Shown here piece after piece: positions 2,920-22,691 of a stretch of 23,430 bases of DNA. This stretch comes from a virus: positions 1-23,430 of the IMG/VR virus record IMGVR_UViG_3300032296_001731; one strand, given 5' to 3'. A program made the position numbers and the translations under genes. Each line of letters opens with the position of its first letter. The stretch's first letter is position 1. The notes beneath the pieces were generated by a model, which saw only the letters and a program-made list of their open reading frames with translations, was not told the origin of the DNA and did not search any database.

Positions 2920-3254
2920 TAGATAGTGCGGTCCCAACCCGTGATAGTCACCGTCACCTTAGAAGCCGTATCAGACAAACCCTGAACAGTCTCAGCAGCC
3001 TCCAACACCAAACCAGTATCCAACACAACCGTATCGTAACCAGCCACAGGCAAATTATACGTGAAGCAGTTAGCAGCAGTAGCAGCAGTACCACGAGCAA
3101 GTGTTATCAACCTGTCAACCCCATCAGTATTACAAATCACAATCTGCTTAATTGTGTACTGATGACCCGAAGGCACCGTAAACAACGTCGTAGTAGAAGT
3201 ACCCACCTGTGTAGGTACAGTCAACATTTTTGGGAATACATCACCAGCAGCCAT
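2919..3254 (-). CDS. Small virion-structure-like protein of 111 aa
   Basis: The sequence starts [18 protein letters not shown] and continues with beta-type segments (TLFTVPSGHQYTIKQIVICN, LITLARG, YDTVVLDTGLVLEAAETV) and a final VTVTITGWDRTI. This alternation of short strands without catalytic motifs resembles the small beta-sandwich head or tail proteins found near phage fibre genes. It overlaps the collagen-like gene upstream and the first fibre gene downstream by TAATG at both ends, so it is locked into the fibre series. I do not recognise a named family. Structural role inferred from position and composition. Confidence 0.55.
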   Translation of the reverse strand: MAAGDVFPKMLTVPTQVGTSTTTLFTVPSGHQYTIKQIVICNTDGVDRLITLARGTAATAANCFTYNLPVAGYDTVVLDTGLVLEAAETVQGLSDTASKVTVTITGWDRTI

Positions 3255-4363
3255 TAGAACTCCATGTTCATCATCGTATAAGTCATTATATTACTTGTTG
3301 TCTGTGTCGGTGCAGACGGACCCGTGGGACCAGTTGGACCAGCTGGACCTGTAGGTCCCGTTACTGTGGATGCTGCACCAGTGGCTCCTGTTGGTCCTGT
3401 TGGTCCTGTAGCACCGTCGACACCAATGATGCCGTTAGTACCAGCAGGGCCAGTCGGTCCAGTAGGACCAGTCACAGTAGAAGCCGCACCGGTAGGACCA
3501 GTTGCACCAGTAGGGCCTGTAGGCCCTGTTACTGTGCTTGCAGCACCTGTAGGCCCTGTTGGTCCGGTTACAGTAGAATCTGCGCCTGTAGGCCCTGTAG
3601 GGCCTGTTACAGTAGAAGCTGCGCCGGTCGGACCAGTAGGACCAGTAGGACCAGTGGGTCCTGTTGATCCAGTTGGGCCAGTTACACCTTGAGGACCAGT
3701 TGGACCGGTATCGCCAATATTTCCAGCAAGAGAAAAACTCCACAGACTAGAGGTTCCAGAATTACCAATTGTATCTACAGTCATGGTCATAGTAGTTCCG
3801 GATACTGTGACAATACCTTCCATATAACTTGTTGATGACAATGGATTTATTGCACGAACCCTTTGACCAGATTGATATGCGTTTGGCCATGGAGATGAAA
3901 TAGTAAAAGTTTTTGAGCCAACCCCAATGGTATTTGATGTAGCAGAAGTAACACCAGAATATCCAGCACCAGTTTGACCGGTAGGGCCTGTTACCGTAGA
4001 AGCCGCACCTGTTGGTCCGGTTGGACCAGTTGCACCAGTTGGACCCGTCGGCCCGGTTACGGTTGATGCCGCACCCGTTGGTCCCGTTGGACCAGTAACG
4101 GTAGACGCTGCTCCAGTCGGACCAGTCGGACCAGTTACAGTGCTTGCAGCACCGGTAGGACCCGTAGGGCCTGTAGGACCCGTGGGACCAGTTGGACCTT
4201 GTGGGCCGGCGTTAGATGTACCAACAACGGTAATAGTGTAATCAACAGAAGTGTATGCAATAGGATCGACGTTTGGTCTGGTTACAACAATAGATTTATT
4301 GCCATAATACGTGCCTGTAGACGAAAGGTCTGTTCTGGTGACAACAATGTTGGTTGTTGGCAT
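3254..4363 (-). CDS. Collagen-like fibre protein with two GPT-rich helices and a central insert domain
   Basis: 369 aa. Residues 1-52 form a non-collagen head ([15 protein letters not shown] and on). Residues about 53-133 are Gly-X-Y repeats, mostly GPT. Residues about 134-218 are a globular insert rich in Ser/Thr/Val (from [11 protein letters not shown] to FSLAGNIGD). Residues about 219-350 are a second collagen-like stretch, followed by a short tail ending MMNMEF. The unit [11 protein letters not shown] (once GADSTVT) occurs nine times and adds one residue to the Gly-every-third register, so each is a regular interruption. Phage proteins of this kind form trimeric fibres, usually in the tail. 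GAGG lies 5 nt before the ATG. The repeat DNA uses varied codons, so copies are much less alike than their peptides. Confidence 0.85.
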
Positions 4364-4888: not shown

Positions 4889-5890
4889 TCATTTCCGGCG
4901 GATGATTGGTGGAGCAGCCGCTAATACAACACCTACGACGATAAGTGTTCTGCGTTGCTTGACAGGGACTTTTGAGCCAACCGGAACATATGTATCCACG
5001 GCCCCACCAAAAACGTTGACTTCCTGCTCAAAAGCTTGACGTACTTCTTCAGGGGCAGATTGAACGCTGGCAACCAGCTCTTCTAACTGCGTATCAGAAA
5101 GATCGTTTACCTCTAAAGCAGCAAAAACCTCTTCAGCTTCATCTTGTGTAAGTGTTGCCAAAACTTCAGGATCGGTAGCTATTTCAGCAGCTTGGTCAGC
5201 TGTCACCGTTGGCGGTATCGTCACCGGGATGGTCGTTGTTGTTGCCGGGATCGTAGTAGTTGTTGTCGTTGCAGGGACAGTCGTTGTCGGAACAGTAGTA
5301 GTAGGTATCACTATTAATGTCGTGGATGTGGTATTTTGGACCCATGTTGTCGTCGTTTCCGGTATTGAAGTCGTTGTTGGTGGCAGTGTGGTTGTTGTGG
5401 TTGTGGTTGTTGTGGTGGTGGTAGTAGTAGATGTGGTTGTGGTGGTTGATGTTGTGGTTGTCGACGTTGATGTTGTGGTTGTCGGTTCTTCTGTGGTAGA
5501 TGTTAGCATTGACCCCATACCGTTGAAACCAAGTTCGTACTGTAAGTTCCAACCTCCACCTGTACGCCAAGCATTAGGATCGCCGCAGCAAATACCAGCC
5601 CTGAGCCGATAACGACCGGCAGGCACGGCAATAGAAATATAGGACTGTAAACCAAACGAGTCATCGTTGGCGGCAAGAAGATTCCCTTGTTCGTCGTATA
5701 CCCAAAGCATTGGATCAGAAGGATAACCTTCAATCATGTAGGTTTGAGCCACAAATTGAGTAGGTTCCGGATAATCAAACCAAATGTCTGTTGGTTCCGT
5801 TATGATGTAATTCTGAGCTGCCGCCCCAGAAACTGAGAAAAACGCTAATACTCCAATTAGTAAAACTAAATACCTAGCGTATTTGTGCAT
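4889..5890 (-). CDS. Secreted, Thr-rich, C-terminally membrane-anchored protein
   Basis: 333 aa. Residues 1-26 are a signal peptide (MHKYARYLVLLIGVLAFFS, then VSGAAAQN, with an AAA-type cleavage site). Residues about 30-115 resemble a PPC-like beta domain: DPMLWVYDEQGNLLAANDD, then SYISIAVPAGRYRLRAGICC. Residues about 130-225 are almost pure Thr/Pro/Ser, a mucin-like linker. Residues about 228-300 are acidic and helical (TADQAAEIATDPEVLATL and on). The end holds PVKQRR, a hydrophobic helix (TLIVVGVVLAAAPPII) and RRK, as in an anchor with a positive stop. It sits among virion genes, which is unusual for a secreted protein. It might coat the cell surface during infection, for example to block adsorption, or serve the virion. 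Thr-rich linkers like this are frequent in Actinobacteria. Confidence 0.75.
   Translation of the reverse strand: MHKYARYLVLLIGVLAFFSVSGAAAQNYIITEPTDIWFDYPEPTQFVAQTYMIEGYPSDPMLWVYDEQGNLLAANDDSFGLQSYISIAVPAGRYRLRAGICCGDPNAWRTGGGWNLQYELGFNGMGSMLTSTTEEPTTTTSTSTTTTSTTTTTSTTTTTTTTTTTTTTLPPTTTSIPETTTTWVQNTTSTTLIVIPTTTVPTTTVPATTTTTTIPATTTTIPVTIPPTVTADQAAEIATDPEVLATLTQDEAEEVFAALEVNDLSDTQLEELVASVQSAPEEVRQAFEQEVNVFGGAVDTYVPVGSKVPVKQRRTLIVVGVVLAAAPPIIRRK
5226..5500 (-). repeat. Low-complexity Thr/Pro codon tract
   Basis: On the plus strand this stretch is a long run of GTT, GTG and GTA triplets. On the coding strand it is ACN Thr codons with a few Pro and Ile, encoding the mucin-like linker of the secreted protein. 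ACA, ACC and ACT are mixed, so it is not a simple perfect microsatellite. It is still a place where slippage could change linker length in multiples of three without breaking the frame. Confidence 0.8.
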
Positions 5891-13922: not shown

Positions 13923-14228
13923 TTATTCCGATTTAGCTGATTGCTCGTAAATGTTTTTCCAAATTTGCATTGATAGCTCTGAAACACCCTGAATAGCAGC
14001 ATGTTCTTCTGAAGTTATAGTTCCAGCGTCGTATGCCATTTTTCCGAGGTTCATAACATATGAACACCCCATAAATATAGCAGAAGCTATGTGTTCAGGC
14101 AATGGATCAGGCCAACCGGCAGACAGTAAACCTGCTAGCGCTTGTGCAGATATTGTTGTATCCGGTGCAGCTATCGTTGAAGATAACAACAGTTTTGTTT
14201 GTTTTGGTGTTGTGTATTTAGTTTCCAT
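13923..14228 (-). CDS. 101-aa hypothetical protein in the WhiB frame
   Basis: From an ATG at 14228 with GAGG about 9 nt upstream, inside the end of the preceding 102-aa gene. It reads METKYTTPKQTKLLLSSTIA, then ALAGLLSAGWPDPLPEHIAS and a helical C-terminus (MQIWKNIYEQSAKSE). The same frame has no stop all the way back to the WhiB domain, so the residues could also be made as the end of a 275-aa WhiB fusion. The internal ribosome site suggests separate translation. Sequence composition looks genuine, but no family is recognised. It precedes the putative TerS by one base. Confidence 0.6.
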   Translation of the reverse strand: METKYTTPKQTKLLLSSTIAAPDTTISAQALAGLLSAGWPDPLPEHIASAIFMGCSYVMNLGKMAYDAGTITSEEHAAIQGVSELSMQIWKNIYEQSAKSE

Positions 14229-14750
14229 CTTAAATGTCCTCGATCTCTCCAATTTCGGGTTGGAATGGGACTCCCAACTTGATTGCCAATGACTCAATCT
14301 CAGGCCAAAGGAAGTTGTAAGCGGCGATAACAACATGTCCGGTTGCTTCCCATCTTTCGGCATAAACTGCTTCAAGTTCATCGTCGGAAACGTCTTTGTC
14401 GGTGTAGTCTTCAAGTTCAAGCCATTCAATGGCTTTATTGGCTGCATCAACTGATCGTCCAAGGAATTCTTCCCAAACGAGTTGTTTATGAGCGGTTTCT
14501 TCGTCAAACGGTTCTGGCGAATAGTTTCCCTTTGCCATGGTGATAATCCTCCATACATTCCAGCAGTGTCCTCTACTGCCGGAAAACTTAGTGCGTATTC
14601 AAGACATTCTTGTCTTACTGGGCATTCATTACATATTGCTCGTGCTTGAGCAAAAAAGTCTTTTCCTTGTGGGTCGGAAGGAAACCAGATGTTGGTGTCC
14701 AACCCCCTACAACTAGCATCCTGTAACCAATTAGAACGGCTCTTCGTCAT
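13923..14750 (-). CDS. WhiB-like iron-sulfur regulator; open frame continues into the downstream gene
   Basis: The start is an ATG at 14750, 20 nt inside the end of ssb. The WhiB domain fills residues 1-80: Cys14 in QDASCRGL, an IWFPSD motif, Cys40-x2-Cys43-x5-Cys49 (ICNECPVRQEC) and the GMYGGLSPWQR turn. These ligate a [4Fe-4S] cluster and contact the host sigma factor. Phage WhiB proteins such as mycobacteriophage TM4 WhiB are known to alter host gene expression and block superinfection. There is no stop after the domain: the frame runs 102 codons through the overlapping gene 14230-14538 and joins the 101-aa frame, for 275 aa in all. The middle part (residues about 85-174) has odd composition, as if overprinted. 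Either a fusion is made, or a stop was lost by a real or assembly indel. Confidence 0.8.
   Translation of the reverse strand: MTKSRSNWLQDASCRGLDTNIWFPSDPQGKDFFAQARAICNECPVRQECLEYALSFPAVEDTAGMYGGLSPWQRETIRQNRLTKKPLINNSFGKNSLDDQLMQPIKPLNGLNLKTTPTKTFPTMNLKQFMPKDGKQPDMLLSPLTTSFGLRLSHWQSSWESHSNPKLERSRTFKMETKYTTPKQTKLLLSSTIAAPDTTISAQALAGLLSAGWPDPLPEHIASAIFMGCSYVMNLGKMAYDAGTITSEEHAAIQGVSELSMQIWKNIYEQSAKSE
14230..14538 (-). CDS. 102-aa acidic hypothetical protein overlapping the whiB frame
   Basis: The ATG at 14538 has a perfect GGAGG 9 nt upstream, so translation is well supported. The acidic product runs MAKGNYSPEPFDEETAHKQL, then VWEEFLGRSVDAANKAIEWL and ELEAVYAERWEATGHVVIAA, and ends GVPFQPEIGEIEDI. 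Its codon pattern is typical of the neighbours. It lies entirely inside the open WhiB frame, shifted by one base. The stop (14230) is followed within two bases by the 101-aa gene's ATG. Function unknown. Confidence 0.75.
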   Translation of the reverse strand: MAKGNYSPEPFDEETAHKQLVWEEFLGRSVDAANKAIEWLELEDYTDKDVSDDELEAVYAERWEATGHVVIAAYNFLWPEIESLAIKLGVPFQPEIGEIEDI

Positions 14751-15114
14751 CTGATTGTGGGGCTGAGGTCTTGCGAGCCGCCGGCATAGTCGTGGTTGTA
14801 GGGATTTCAAACCGTAGGCTCAGCCCACAATCATCGACCAGTACTTCCATATTGGACTTTGTTTCACCACTCTTGGTCTTGTATGAGTCAAGCTTGTATC
14901 GTCCTGTGACCACGACACGGTTTCCCTTGGCGAAGATCGAAGCGATGTTCTCGGCTTGTGCTCCCCAGGCTACGCATCGGTGCCAGGTTGTCTCTGTTTC
15001 CTCACCGTTCTTGCGGGTGTCAGCTACGCTAAAGCGTACTTTAGCCTTGCCTGATGGTGTGAAGGTTAGTTCCGGATCTTGTCCGAGGTTGCCTACGATT
15101 GTGATTAAGTTCAT
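14731..15114 (-). CDS. ssb: Single-stranded DNA-binding protein
   Basis: 127 aa. An OB-fold SSB domain covers residues 1-100: MNLITIVGNLGQDPELTFTP, then KAKVRFSVADTRKN, then TTWHRCVAWGAQAENIASIF, then GNRVVVTGRYKLDSYKTKSG. After a short Ala/Pro/Ser linker it ends in DDEEPF, the acidic tip that recruits replication and repair proteins. It coats single-stranded DNA during replication and recombination. The ATG overlaps the preceding stop as ATGA, with GGAGG 4-5 nt upstream. The only replication protein recognised in the window; the polymerase and helicase must lie elsewhere. Confidence 0.93.
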   Translation of the reverse strand: MNLITIVGNLGQDPELTFTPSGKAKVRFSVADTRKNGEETETTWHRCVAWGAQAENIASIFAKGNRVVVTGRYKLDSYKTKSGETKSNMEVLVDDCGLSLRFEIPTTTTMPAARKTSAPQSDDEEPF

Positions 15115-18089: not shown

Positions 18090-18446
18090 CTACTCGTCAA
18101 GGTCGCCCGACATAAGACCAGTAAGCCAGTCGTCGCACTCTCTCGGTCGGTCTGCGTATTCACAAAGAGCCTTACCGAGCTTGTCCAGCTCCATCCAGCC
18201 GAGACCCTCAACAGCTCCACCAAAGCCACCCTGCTCATTGCGCCCCCAAGTAGAGAGACGACAGCCATATTGCTCATCGGAATAGCCCACTATGTCAAGG
18301 AACAGGGGAAAGGGTCGGCGTGGGTCTCGGTGGTCATAGTTCAGCGACCAGCTCCACAGGTCAGCGATAGCCCCGACAAATGCCGGCGCAGCTTCGACAT
18401 AATCCCAAATAGTTTGGGGGTCTTGGGTGGTGTCTTCGGTTTCCAT
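18090..18446 (-). CDS. 118-aa acidic hypothetical protein
   Basis: The ATG at 18446 overlaps the preceding stop as TAATG. The sequence is acidic and Trp-rich: METEDTTQDPQTIWDYVEAA, then PAFVGAIADLWSWSLNYDHR, then FPLFLDIVGYSDEQYGCRLS, then RECDDWLTGLMSGDLDE. It looks like a single globular domain with no TM and no known catalytic motif. Middle gene of its unit. Acidic small phage proteins often bind host proteins or mimic DNA; here that is only a thought. Confidence 0.6.
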   Translation of the reverse strand: METEDTTQDPQTIWDYVEAAPAFVGAIADLWSWSLNYDHRDPRRPFPLFLDIVGYSDEQYGCRLSTWGRNEQGGFGGAVEGLGWMELDKLGKALCEYADRPRECDDWLTGLMSGDLDE

Positions 18447-19063
18447 TACTCGCCCTCGCTCTCGTCGTCGTCGTTCACTTGCGATGAAGCGTGAAGAACG
18501 GTCACAAGACGAGCGACCAGCCCCTTCACCTTGTCAGCGTCGGGGGTGGTCTCGGTCGTGGCGACTGTTATCAGCTCCATAAGTGCCGAGCCGTAGCCCT
18601 CGCCCCATACAGCCCAGCCCACGCTGTCAAGTGCCTCGGCTAGCTGGCCTGAACCGTCTTCGGTCTCTACGGTCTCGGCGTTATCGCCAAAGTCCAGACG
18701 GCTAATGCGTGTTCCGTCTTCGGCGTAGCAACAAGCCACACGAAGCCGACGGCGCTCGGCGTGTTCAGAAGGTCGCCCCTCTATCTTTCCGTCTGCCCCC
18801 AACGGCGCACCCCAGCCAGTTGTTACAACAACAAAAGCAGAGGGGAACAGGTCGGGTAGGTCGGACTGTGTCCGACGCTCCCAGCGTTGAGCCGAGTAGA
18901 TAGCTAACGCTCCGTAAATGTCGCTGGTGACTGTGGGAACTAGTACCCATTCAGAGCCGTAACGCTCGTAGATTTCGGGCGTTTCTATTTCGTCGCCTGA
19001 GAAGCTGGGCGTTGCCCCTACCCAGTTGTCTAGGTGGCATTTCGCCAATGTTTCTGTGGTCAT
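18446..19063 (-). CDS. 205-aa acidic hypothetical protein
   Basis: The ATG at 19063 is preceded by GAAAGGTAGAACA; a longer frame to 19138 crosses the terminator at 19111-19154 and is rejected. The sequence is MTTETLAKCHLDNWVGATPS, then SEWVLVPTVTSDIYGALAIY, then DLPDLFPSAFVVVTTGWGAP, then RLRVACCYAEDGTRISRLDF, with a very acidic end (VNDDDESEGE). First gene of a three-gene leftward unit. I do not recognise it; the mixed strand/helix pattern suggests a soluble globular protein. Confidence 0.65.
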   Translation of the reverse strand: MTTETLAKCHLDNWVGATPSFSGDEIETPEIYERYGSEWVLVPTVTSDIYGALAIYSAQRWERRTQSDLPDLFPSAFVVVTTGWGAPLGADGKIEGRPSEHAERRRLRVACCYAEDGTRISRLDFGDNAETVETEDGSGQLAEALDSVGWAVWGEGYGSALMELITVATTETTPDADKVKGLVARLVTVLHASSQVNDDDESEGE

Positions 19064-19110
19064 TGTTCTACCTTTCGTAGTGCCGACACTATGCCGACAA
19101 AGAGAGACTA

Positions 19111-19424: not shown

Positions 19425-19465
19425 ATAACAAAGCCCCGACTATCGGGGGGTGATAGTCGGGGCTT
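19425..19465 (-). terminator. Rho-independent terminator of the AAA+/VWA operon
   Basis: A perfect 14-bp stem (19431-19444 with 19452-19465) with a 7-nt loop, followed on the minus strand by TTTGTTATTG. The stem includes CCCCGACTATC, which recurs in the small hairpin at 17089-17103. It closes the unit that starts at the promoter at 22663-22691. Confidence 0.8.
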
Positions 19466-19515
19466 CATTGATGTTGGGGGAGAAAGGGCAAAGAACCCCA
19501 ACGCCCTGAATGTTA

Positions 19516-20319
19516 TCAGTCGTCGTCGTCGTTTCCACTTAGATCGAGTTCGTCATTATCCAAAGCGAACGCCACCATTTTCAGAACCAGCGACATTACT
19601 TCGTTCGCGCTCTCGTCGCCGCGACGAAGCAGGTTCATTGAGTAATCCATAAGACCAGCTGGGGTTAGGTCGTGACCTTCTCTCGCTACTTCGCTCAACA
19701 GCGAGAGCAGGGTCATAGTTTTGATAAGTATCTCATCTATCGCACCACAAGCTCGCACATTGTCGTCGCCTACTTCACCAGTCCATTGCTCACTTATCTC
19801 CACAGTCGGCTCACAACCTGGGGGGAACATTGTTACCTCACCAAGCAGACCCGACAAGCTGATGATGTTCACCACTCGTACTGGCACACTCCCTGCTCGT
19901 AAAGCGATTAGTTCCTCGGTGCTTGCCTGCTCAATAATGCTTCTCTGCTGGTCTTCGGGCAACTGGTCAAATAGACACGGCTCGCCAGTTTCAGGGTGTT
20001 CTGTTCCCCACCTACCTTCGCCGTGAGAAATGATAAGCAAACCAAGAACCTCGGTCACATCTTCACGGTCTATACCGTTCTCCACATCTTGACGAACCAT
20101 AGACATAGCTTCTCGAAATGTTTCCATAAGAGCGTCAGTACCCCATTCGGTAATACTGCCCAGCTTCCACCGTGACACTCGCTCACCGTTCTGTACTTCG
20201 GACACTCGCAAGTAGCACATACTTTTAGCGTCGTCGTAAGTTCTCGCAGGTAGTCGGTACTTGTCGTGCCAGTCAGCTAACAATGTTGCTGGTCTTGTTT
20301 CTTCGTATGTGTATCTCAT
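19516..20319 (-). CDS. 267-aa acidic protein, third gene of the AAA+/VWA operon
   Basis: The ATG at 20319 has AAGGA 9 nt upstream; a TTG nine codons earlier overlaps the VWA gene and is less likely. The N-terminus reads MRYTYEETRPATLLADWHDK. A helical acidic middle follows (MVRQDVENGIDREDVTEVLG), then EHPETGEPCLFDQLPEDQQ, then EILIKTMTLLSLLSEVAREG, and the end is DLSGNDDDD. I recognise no family. It shares EHPETGE, including 22 identical bases, with the AAA+ ATPase of the same operon. It probably partners the AAA+/VWA pair as a substrate, adaptor or regulator, which is inference from operon position. Confidence 0.68.
   Translation of the reverse strand: MRYTYEETRPATLLADWHDKYRLPARTYDDAKSMCYLRVSEVQNGERVSRWKLGSITEWGTDALMETFREAMSMVRQDVENGIDREDVTEVLGLLIISHGEGRWGTEHPETGEPCLFDQLPEDQQRSIIEQASTEELIALRAGSVPVRVVNIISLSGLLGEVTMFPPGCEPTVEISEQWTGEVGDDNVRACGAIDEILIKTMTLLSLLSEVAREGHDLTPAGLMDYSMNLLRRGDESANEVMSLVLKMVAFALDNDELDLSGNDDDD
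19980..20001. repeat. 22-bp exact repeat shared with 22218-22239
   Basis: Two identical 22-bp copies, both coding on the minus strand for EHPETGE in the 267-aa protein and in the AAA+ ATPase. In the ATPase the motif lies between Walker B and sensor 1, where MoxR/CobS proteins normally have it. In the 267-aa protein it is unexpected. Confidence 0.75.
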
Positions 20320-20335
20320 TTTTGTTTTTCCTTTT

Positions 20336-21811
20336 TTACTTGCCAAGTGCGTTGGCGATTATTTCCACGAACTTATGTCGGGGTCTAACCCCACGCTTCA
20401 TTTCGGCCACAAGCCGGACTGCTTCGTTCGCATCTTCTACGCCAATGATGTTGTACTTGTACGACAACATAGCGCACTCTTTGATTAGGTCAGCCGATGA
20501 ATAGTCACCTTTGCCAGTAACAAATCCGTCGCTAACCCAAACAATGAAGTCCTTCGGTTTTTTTCTTTGACGTATCGCCCAACGGAGCGCAGGACTATCT
20601 ACGCCATTGCCGTTGTTCAGGTCTAAATGCTGAAACTCGCTCTCACCAATCATTCGCCCATTGCGAGCCAAAATCCAAGCGTTGGCGTTGTCTTTGCCAC
20701 GATAGGTGTACGCCATAATCGTCGCACCAGCGAAGTGTTTGAGTATCGCTTTCACATCGTCGTGACTAACACTCATAGAACCTGAACAGTCAAACACAAC
20801 TGTCCCACCGTCACCACGAACTACCTCACGAAAAATACGCCGTTCAGGGTCGGTTAGCAGCCGATCTGGTCGAACAGGAAACTTGCCAGTCATAGCTGGG
20901 CGTTTGCGCCGACCAATGAATGAGGTAGCACTCTCTGTTAGCGCAGTCATTCCCCAGCGCAGGTCTTCCCAATGAGATGACATAGGCACGACAGGTGGCT
21001 TGTGTTTTTCTTCATTTTTCTTTTGCCCCAGTTTGGTTTTTTGTGGGGTGGCTGGTGGGTCAGATAGCCATTCGTCAATCATTGTGGCGAGTGGCAGAGT
21101 GTGTTCTACAAATCCGTCAGGAAGAAAAGTGTCCTGATTACCTTTCGTTTTTGTATCTGTCCAGCGATAGCCGATAGGACTGGTATCGGCACGACGACGA
21201 GTAAGCGAGTAACGCGAACTGTTGTCCACCACCCACTCCCTATCTTTTAGGTAGTTCTGAATAGCGTCGGTTGCGTCTTTCCATTCAGGATTTATTCGTA
21301 TCCGTCGCTTGACCGTCTTGTAAGCTTTTGTGTTCCAAGTCGATAGCAACAACGACAAAGCCGAGTGCCAATCTTTATTTTTTACAGCTTCATCAGCAAG
21401 CCCACGCTCTGAACCGTCGGTCATATCGGCAATGTCAGCGATACTTGTACCGTCGTAAGCTTGTCGCTTCGCCCGACCAGCAATGAAATTGACACGGACT
21501 TCTTCGGCAATACGCACCGACGCAGGAGAAATACCCAGCTGGGTCATCAACGCGGCCGGCACAGTTGAGGGTGAGATACGAGCGTGGATGAGTTCGTGAA
21601 GGCGTACTGCTTTTGCTTGCTCACTCTCTCCCATTGGCACGGCTATTTCGTGACTAGCAAAATCGGTGAAGGAAGCTCCACGCTGTAAAGGGGTAGGAAT
21701 TGCTTCCCACCCCCTTCTCATCATTGGGTCAAGTTCACGGTCTGCGCGATCCGATACAAGCCATTCAGGACTAGCGACAACTTCTGTTGTTTTGCGTTTG
21801 TTTTGTGACAT
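20336..21811 (-). CDS. VWA-domain protein with N-terminal HExxH metallopeptidase-like domain
   Basis: 491 aa from the ATG at 21811 (AGGAG 7 nt upstream). The GTG two codons earlier, which would overlap as GTGA, is too close to the ribosome site. Residues 71-78 are LHELIHAR, a HExxH zinc motif (His72, Glu73, His76), followed by AEEVRVN (Glu103/104), a likely third ligand, as in the DUF2201-type putative metallopeptidase. The middle is basic and variable. The C-terminal VWA domain holds the MIDAS set: DCSGSMS (Asp341, Ser343, Ser345), GVDSPAL (around 404-409) and VSDGF (Asp428). HExxH plus VWA next to a MoxR-like ATPase is a known bacterial pairing; CobT is a related VWA partner. It probably binds Mg and the ATPase to act on an unknown target. 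Confidence 0.85.
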   Translation of the reverse strand: MSQNKRKTTEVVASPEWLVSDRADRELDPMMRRGWEAIPTPLQRGASFTDFASHEIAVPMGESEQAKAVRLHELIHARISPSTVPAALMTQLGISPASVRIAEEVRVNFIAGRAKRQAYDGTSIADIADMTDGSERGLADEAVKNKDWHSALSLLLSTWNTKAYKTVKRRIRINPEWKDATDAIQNYLKDREWVVDNSSRYSLTRRRADTSPIGYRWTDTKTKGNQDTFLPDGFVEHTLPLATMIDEWLSDPPATPQKTKLGQKKNEEKHKPPVVPMSSHWEDLRWGMTALTESATSFIGRRKRPAMTGKFPVRPDRLLTDPERRIFREVVRGDGGTVVFDCSGSMSVSHDDVKAILKHFAGATIMAYTYRGKDNANAWILARNGRMIGESEFQHLDLNNGNGVDSPALRWAIRQRKKPKDFIVWVSDGFVTGKGDYSSADLIKECAMLSYKYNIIGVEDANEAVRLVAEMKRGVRPRHKFVEIIANALGK

Positions 21812-21813
21812 TC

Positions 21814-22623
21814 TCACTCTCCTGTTTCTAGTGAACGGCTGGTCAAGTCGTAACGGATACCGACGTGTTCTGGACTTGTAGCTTCTTCGTTGCCGATAGC
21901 CGTACTAATTCGTACAGCTTCCATAATTGCTCTCGCTTCGTAACCAAACACTAAGCGTGTCGCAGTCTCCATACTGATACTTTGAGTAAGTTTGTCAAAC
22001 GCAAAAAACGAACGCAACGAGTAACGGTCGGTTGTACGGTTCGCATAAGACCTAGCTATTGGTTGTAAGTATTGGGGAAGACCCAGCAATGCTTGTGGGT
22101 TTACTTCGTTGATGTTGATACGAACAGGAAATCTATCTACAAGGTTCGCAGGCAAATCTTCTAGGCGTTCGGCGTTAGTAGTTGCGATTATCTCAAAACC
22201 CTTGCGAGGTGAAATGCGCTCGCCAGTTTCAGGGTGTTCACGAACAGCTGAACCGTCGCTATCACAAATAAGCAGCAAGGCCGTGAGAACATCACCTGAC
22301 GCTTGGTCTAGTTCGTCAAGAATGAGACGGTCTCCACCTTCCCACGCTCTCAACGCAGAACCAGTTACAAACTTCCAGTCTTCTTTGCTGGGCTTCCATA
22401 GACCGTCAATGTCGGCTGTGGTCATGTCGGGTGAACACAGAACACGGTAGGCACGACGAGTGCGAACTTCGTCGCCGTGTACATCAGCTGGCGTTTCTAA
22501 ATGGTTGTTGAGCGCATAATAAGTCTTGCCAGTTCCTGGCTGACCGTAAAGCAGAACGCGATCGATACCTGCTTGTAAAGCAATGTCTAGGTCTGCCCAG
22601 CATTGGCTAATTTCTGTTGTCAT
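21814..22623 (-). CDS. MoxR/CobS-like AAA+ ATPase
   Basis: 269 aa from the ATG at 22623, with AAAGGAGAGAG before it; 50 extra upstream residues in the same frame cross the promoter and are rejected. Walker A is GQPGTGKT (27-34), and TTADIDGLWKP (68-78) is typical of the AAA_5/MoxR group. Walker B is LILDE (100-104), sensor 1 is ATTN (Asn150), and LVDRFPV (Arg164) is the likely arginine finger. EHPETGER lies between Walker B and sensor 1. Such ATPases form hexamers that remodel or load cofactors into partners carrying a VWA domain, which is the next gene here with 2 nt between. First gene of the operon. CobS, MoxR and phage homologues are hard to tell apart by eye. Confidence 0.9.
   Translation of the reverse strand: MTTEISQCWADLDIALQAGIDRVLLYGQPGTGKTYYALNNHLETPADVHGDEVRTRRAYRVLCSPDMTTADIDGLWKPSKEDWKFVTGSALRAWEGGDRLILDELDQASGDVLTALLLICDSDGSAVREHPETGERISPRKGFEIIATTNAERLEDLPANLVDRFPVRININEVNPQALLGLPQYLQPIARSYANRTTDRYSLRSFFAFDKLTQSISMETATRLVFGYEARAIMEAVRISTAIGNEEATSPEHVGIRYDLTSRSLETGE
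22218..22239. repeat. 22-bp exact repeat, second copy (see 19980-20001)
   Basis: The copy within the AAA+ gene. Both copies are read in the same frame and give the same peptide core. The two genes are otherwise unrelated, so this is a short local duplication, a gene conversion, or selection on the peptide. Confidence 0.75.
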
Positions 22624-22647
22624 TTTCTCTCTCCTTTGAGGACGGCG

Positions 22648-22677
22648 TTGTTGCCGAGTGTCACTATACGCTACTAT
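22648..22677 (+). promoter_or_regulatory. Rightward promoter of the 99-aa gene (leaderless transcript predicted)
   Basis: TTGTTG (22648-22653) is followed after 18 bp by TACTAT (22672-22677). The expected start lies 7-8 bp later, at the ATG 22685 itself, and no Shine-Dalgarno is present there. Leaderless mRNAs of this kind are common in Actinobacteria. It overlaps the leftward promoter at 22663-22691. Confidence 0.5.
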
Positions 22678-22691
22678 GTCGCTTATGACAA
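22663..22691 (-). promoter_or_regulatory. Sigma70/SigA-type promoter of the AAA+/VWA operon
   Basis: On the minus strand TTGTCA (22686-22691) is followed after exactly 17 bp by TATAGT (22663-22668), leaving a leader of about 30 nt before the AAA+ ATG. It is face to face with the rightward promoter, and its -35 box covers the start of the 99-aa gene, so the two directions may exclude each other. Confidence 0.7.

Follow-up and report, generated by a model that had tools for sequence, protein, structure and literature searches.

A phage operon encoding a probable MoxR/VWA-type machine with an HExxH domain and an acidic third partner

Introduction

In the NorQ-NorD (NorQD) system, a finger of the von Willebrand factor A (VWA) protein sits in the pore of the AAA+ ring, and its metal ion-dependent adhesion site (MIDAS) grips acidic residues of the target (PMC9976466, PMC13036017). 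Related pairs occur in VMAP and other MoxR-vWA ternary conflict systems, which are cellular and have VMAP, iSTAND, FtsH or beta-propeller partners and effector domains (PMC7159879). Among phages, gp24-gp25 of N4 form a core pair of the N4-like phages with unknown function (PMC4193335, PMC2784036), and a MoxR AAA+/metallopeptidase-vWA pair of jumbo phages, described in 2021, was proposed to act in virion assembly (PMC7824862). Here we analyze an operon from a bacterial virus of freshwater actinobacteria, found in a stretch of 23,430 nucleotides (the window; positions 1-23,430 of IMG/VR record IMGVR_UViG_3300032296_001731, itself a 23-kb fragment). This single leftward operon, as read from the open reading frame (ORF) list of the window, encodes an AAA+ ATPase, a VWA protein with an N-terminal HExxH motif and a 267-residue acidic protein. 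We propose that it probably specifies a remodeller akin to NorQD, with a peptidase-like adaptor and, as third component, a target adaptor or dedicated target specific to phages.

Results

The ORFs and their translations bear out an earlier reading of this sequence (the original prediction) in the placement, order and motifs of all three genes. The AAA+ protein carries the Walker A (GQPGTGKT), Walker B (LILDE), sensor 1 and arginine finger elements of the MoxR/AAA_5 type and matches Pfam AAA_5 at 1.8e-14 (54.4 bits, cut-off 22). Walker A (G29-T34 region), Walker B (L100-E104), N150 and R164 are invariant in nine sequences. Its matches among PDB sequences include midasin (8e-24) and NorQ (2.7e-6), and it matches the phage CobS-type PHROG 249 at 1.7e-12; the bpMoxR model gave 14.5 bits, under its cut-off of 27.

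The VWA protein contains HELIH at residues 72-76 and DCSGS starting at Asp341. Its MIDAS (D341/S343/S345, D405 and D428) is kept in 72 of 72 full-length family members. The top fold match of the C-terminal part is the VWA domain of NorD from the NorQ-NorD complex (Z 9.5, rmsd 4.0 over 161 residues), a score about 0.5 Z above the next unrelated VWA domains, so that the rank alone is not decisive, but it is in line with the AAA+ protein's match to NorQ. The locus thus pairs a MoxR-type AAA+ gene with an adjacent gene for a VWA protein of intact MIDAS and VWA fold. Together with the synteny described below, the NorD match and the matches to midasin and NorQ uphold the proposal of one MoxR-VWA-type machine.

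The N-terminal peptidase-like motif consists of H72, E73 and H76 with E103/E104, the latter belonging to an AEExRxN motif 26 residues after HExxH. The AlphaFold2 (AF2) model (pLDDT, its per-residue confidence score, 85) places HExxH on a predicted helix at 64-79 and the invariant E103/E104 on another at 96-117. This model favours a putative zincin-like site in the HExxH domain, for which metal-dependent proteolysis would be the predicted activity. A HExxH domain at the N-terminus joined to a VWA domain at the C-terminus, with an AAA+ partner, is the DUF2201-type architecture; searches with Pfam PF13203 and PF09967 found no match in the VWA protein at E up to 1, nor in any of 50 family members at 0.1.

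Relatives were gathered by IMG/VR scans with the AAA+, VWA and third proteins. The original prediction had called for a survey of the three-gene order, counting a third gene found alone as a point against a single machine. The order AAA-VWA-third was seen again in about a dozen IMG/VR contigs, with the third gene directly 3' of the VWA gene and, where readable, never elsewhere. This recurrence is more than chance. The AAA+ and VWA genes occur together in 38 of 38 representative loci, and in a narrower third-protein scan of viral contigs, which gave eight loci, the VWA gene precedes the third gene wherever readable. A tblastn search of 50,697 phage records found no match for the VWA protein, the third protein or the protein of the separate downstream gene, and Sixama gp117 as the only match for the AAA+ query.

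HExxH and AEExRxN are both present in 11 of 11 phages of the present branch and both absent in 44 of 44 phages of a sister branch; the HExxH-less phages form one side of a single branch of the tree (support 100/100). The underlying change was probably a loss of the motifs in the sister branch, since the Gordonia-phage and N4-like relatives carry HExxH.

The third protein is acidic: its 276-codon frame holds 52 D/E and 27 K/R. Eight of its residues are invariant in 10 homologues, and E177 is the sole acidic one. Across the same six genomes, mean pairwise identity is 71% for AAA+, 49% for VWA and 31% for the third protein. No match to it was found in Pfam (E up to 1), PHROGs, PADLOC or NCBIfam, nor in 198 genomes of the host class. 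Its AF2 model is fair (pLDDT 81) and matched nothing among PDB folds over Z 4.6; no fold is therefore assigned, which does not show that the fold is new. The earlier claim that this gene is unrelated to known partners stands by sequence and PDB fold, but the model does match viral proteins, namely an uncultured-phage protein and Mycobacterium phage Catdawg gp79 (Foldseek prob 1.0, E 2e-4, TM-score 0.34-0.40 for the latter). Catdawg gp79 carries APSEHPDR, the motif that marks the family of the downstream gene (the PSEHP family). A weak profile match (2e-4 to 3e-3) also links the third protein to this family, of which it may be a divergent member.

PSEHP-family genes are constant neighbours in nearly all related viral loci, lying downstream, beside AAA+ or between AAA+ and VWA, and often either directly ahead of AAA or in the AAA-VWA interval. 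In the HExxH-less sister branch, all 24 representative loci have in the post-VWA slot an acidic protein that we call C4, present at two loci as a cut-off fragment. C4 is clearly related to proteins encoded upstream of AAA+ (2.7e-18), and profile comparison gave no match between C4 and the third protein.

The PSEHP/GWA-P motif proteins and C4 (the window gene at 18446-19066 and families D, D2 and C4 at loci L036-L105) make up a large phage superfamily that has no Pfam or PHROG name. Its genes accompany AAA-VWA pairs, with as many as three at one locus. Catdawg gp79 seems to belong to it; this gene adjoins a DnaN clamp gene, with no AAA-VWA pair within the 30 kb read. A DnaN clamp assignment was considered for the follower gene of locus L106, and PDB and Pfam gave it no support.

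The operon is a conserved transcription unit, because its promoter pair and terminator stem-loop are kept in relatives. The sequence that had been called a good promoter is the best of seven matches in the pattern scan, but it is weak alone, as shuffled sequences give 3.5 matches and the count is near chance. Its standing comes from the relatives: a -35/-10 pair lies 67-75 bp ahead of the AAA start in nine of 10, with a 17-bp spacer in nine of 10. The terminator was confirmed by folding (z = -8.0, far stronger than shuffles), with a stem of 15 bp in our scan instead of the 14 bp claimed earlier. Relatives have a strong stem-loop of different stem sequence at the same place (z -4 to -9). The gaps between the genes are 2 bp (AAA+/VWA) and 16 bp (VWA/third gene).

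A genome scan also found the AAA+/VWA pair in metagenome-assembled genomes (MAGs) of actinobacteria, and 21 of 395 sampled genomes of the same class carry it. The usual chromosomal order is lexA (divergent or nearby), AAA+, HExxH-VWA, a LysM gene, nrdR, a PIG-L gene and dinB. HExxH is present in 19 of 19 chromosomal VWA proteins and AEExRxN in 18. Perfect LexA-type boxes stand ahead of the LysM gene and lexA, and none is specific to AAA+. SOS control of the chromosomal pair was considered and rejected, as the boxes can be assigned to lexA and the LysM gene, and AAA has none ahead of it where lexA lies elsewhere; the same idea for the phage operon was dropped, as 15 phage loci have no LexA-type box upstream of AAA. 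Judged from these sequences, the chromosomal setting is SOS-related, and we make no claim of SOS control of the pair. Within the literature available for searching, nothing linked MoxR/VWA with LexA. At chromosomal loci L108 and L136-L152, the perfect boxes before the LysM gene are paired, and in an Ilumatobacteraceae MAG (locus L107, 2355-3993) two more small VWA genes directly precede the AAA-VWA pair.

Within the window, the operon sits in a non-structural region, beside RecT-type genes and with the terminase gene about 6 kb away. A nearby WhiB-like gene, recognized by eye, and the RecT genes support the view that the host is actinobacterial and that the operon plays an early or middle role. 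The WhiB-like N-terminus (window 13923-14810) continues in frame for about 200 further codons, overlapping another ORF. Among the tail genes, that at 3254-4363 encodes a collagen-like protein with GPTGPTG repeats, and that at 4889-5890 a Thr-rich repeat protein whose N-terminus is signal-like. The coordinates of the operon and its signals are collected in Table 1.

Table 1. Features of the operon and its flank, in window coordinates
Feature	Position	Strand	Basis
AAA+ ATPase, MoxR/NorQ/midasin-like, 269 aa	21814..22623	-	ORF, Pfam AAA_5, PDB sequence matches
VWA co-chaperone carrying a zincin-like (HExxH) domain at its N-terminus, 491 aa	20336..21811	-	motifs, AF2 model, NorD VWA fold match
Third gene, acidic phage-only partner, 267 aa	19516..20319	-	ORF, AF2 model, homologue alignment
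Operon promoter TTGTCA-17-TATAGT, in divergent intergenic region	22663..22691	-	pattern scan, 10/12 match
Operon intrinsic terminator, near-symmetric, 15-bp stem	19431..19465	-	pattern scan and folding
Separate downstream gene of the same neighbourhood ("down"), 206-aa acidic protein, GWGAPL...PSEH..RRR motif	18446..19066	-	constant neighbour in related loci

Discussion

The operon would thus encode a MoxR/VWA (NorQD)-type machine that remodels proteins at the expense of ATP. Its AAA+ protein would assemble as a ring, on which the C-terminal VWA domain, recognized from sequence and model, would dock and grip the target through its metal-bound MIDAS, as in NorQD. The N-terminal zincin-like metal site, to judge from its motifs, probably cuts the presented target in this branch. 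The third protein, which evolves fast and is specific to phages, would feed the machine as an adaptor or as its dedicated target, perhaps engaging the MIDAS with its acidic tail or with an acidic residue, E177 being one candidate; as the least conserved of the three products it behaves as expected for a target-facing part. Neighbouring genes hint that the target is a DNA replication, repair or stress-control protein more likely than a virion protein: a RecT gene in phages, lexA, nrdR and dinB in chromosomes, and DNA helicase and polymerase genes in N4-like phages.

Several observations weigh against this proposal. A large sister branch lacks HExxH and AEExRxN, which qualifies the earlier suggestion that HExxH marks a possible protease; the predicted helices with the invariant E103/E104 favour a site there. 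The presence and absence of the two motifs is, on the tree, a single event, so that their joint loss is not repeated evidence. Two HExxH-VWA phages (L019 and L057) have no third gene, and no homologue of the third gene, PSEHP family or C4 was found nearby beside the chromosomal pairs; because of these phages and chromosomal pairs, the third gene is dispensable for the core machine. Finally, neighbouring genes are weak evidence for the target.

The other explanations differ mainly in what the machine would act on. A virion-assembly chaperone that processes structural proteins peptidolytically has been explicitly proposed for the same architecture in jumbo phages, with Acidianus two-tailed virus as a precedent (PMC7824862). 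We consider this unlikely here, given that the operon lies among non-structural genes by the RecT-type genes and away from the terminase gene, that N4 gp24-gp25 are middle and not late genes (PMC4193335), and that homologues stand among housekeeping genes in bacterial chromosomes. Insertion of a metal or cofactor, as in CobST- or NorQD-like maturation of metalloenzymes, is very unlikely, even though the AAA+ protein resembles NorQ and CobS-type PHROG 249 and the VWA protein resembles NorD. MoxR-VWA similarity also extends to systems with no role in metal handling, neither the HExxH domain nor the third gene has a known counterpart in CobST/NorQD, and a CobN or NOR-like target gene was not noticed among the neighbouring genes.

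A machine for counter-defence or host takeover, which would unfold or cleave a host protein and have the third gene product for its targeting subunit, is possible but rather doubtful. The third gene evolves fast, is unmatched in the host-class genomes and gives way to another gene in relatives. However, the VWA and third proteins have no match in PADLOC and the AAA+ protein only weak ones, to IetA and TRIP13 across the P-loop, while the pair is widely conserved, host chromosomes included, which is unusual for a pure anti-defence tool. The original suggestion that the operon disarms a host system received no direct support. The third protein could also be the substrate of the machine and not its adaptor, such as an antitoxin or repressor whose degradation a signal triggers. 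It is acidic, diverges rapidly and shares the operon, and different acidic proteins take its slot in other branches; this reading predicts the same genetics as the adaptor reading, so the data do not separate the two, and we regard it as possible but rather doubtful.

We would also speculate, with low confidence, that a two-gene metallopeptidase-remodeller is common to phages and their actinobacterial hosts, that the hosts maintain it in a lexA-dinB DNA-damage locus, and that phages rebuilt it with interchangeable adaptors (the third protein, C4 and the PSEHP family) into a retargetable takeover machine, one large branch dropping the peptidase and keeping the remodeller. The chromosomal locus beside lexA is a first concrete hint of the cell process that such machines serve. 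The lineage offers natural comparisons through which function becomes testable, with one branch that has the peptidase site and another that lacks it, partnerless chromosomal versions and swappable third genes. The question matters for N4 gp24 and gp25, long core genes without assigned function.

The original prediction had missed that such pairs are already known in phages (N4 gp24-gp25; jumbo phages, PMC7824862) and are chromosomal in some actinobacteria. N4 gp24 is an AAA+ protein by weak Pfam scores, and gp25 matches DUF2201_N-DUF2201 at 3e-87; a search for DUF2201 proteins turns up gp25 relatives in 576 phage records, of which many are N4-like. Both loci have an AAA+ gene followed by an HExxH-VWA gene, with HExxH before the MIDAS. 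Unlike gp25, the present VWA protein does not match PF13203/PF09967; the profile similarity between the two is weak (0.0017) and limited to the MIDAS region. N4 also lacks a gene like the third gene, and its AAA+ protein is linked to ours only via Gordonia-phage intermediates (1e-17, then 2e-8). In Gordonia phages Sixama, Boopy, Phendrix and GMA2, the set is likewise of three genes (AAA+, a gene of about 230-280 aa, HETGH-VWA), and the AAA+ proteins are related at 1e-17, but the additional gene lies between AAA+ and VWA and is unrelated by profile to the third protein; neither the Gordonia nor the N4-like middle genes gave a profile signal as third-protein homologues. The VWA proteins of Gordonia and Microbacterium phages labelled "AAA-ATPase", and the gp25-type proteins labelled "HNH endonuclease" in many records, are likely misannotated.

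NorQ-NorD and CbbQ-CbbO share with the present pair a single-module AAA+ protein and a C-terminal MIDAS VWA domain, and NorD gives the top fold match. NorD is not known to carry an HExxH domain, and no NOR target was noticed among the neighbouring genes here. As to CobS-CobT, no CobN-sized gene was found among the ORFs of the window, a 23-kb fragment. The MoxR-vWA ternary conflict systems resemble the operon in joining a third component to the pair, whereas the present third gene has no VMAP, iSTAND or beta-propeller match (Pfam, E up to 1). The jumbo-phage pair, compared by architecture, has the same two-protein design in a phage; the present system differs in its small-genome actinophages, its extra phage-specific third gene, its sister branch without peptidase motifs and its chromosomal homologues.

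The general kind is therefore already known from N4 gp24-gp25 and the jumbo phages, and the present operon is a divergent, distant and more elaborate cousin. Because its proteins fail the DUF2201 models and reach N4 only via the Gordonia phages, we regard it as a new variant and not as a filed DUF2201 member. What is new here is the third partner, its replacement by C4 in the HExxH-less branch, the constant PSEHP-motif neighbour and the chromosomal homologues by lexA and LysM-nrdR-dinB.

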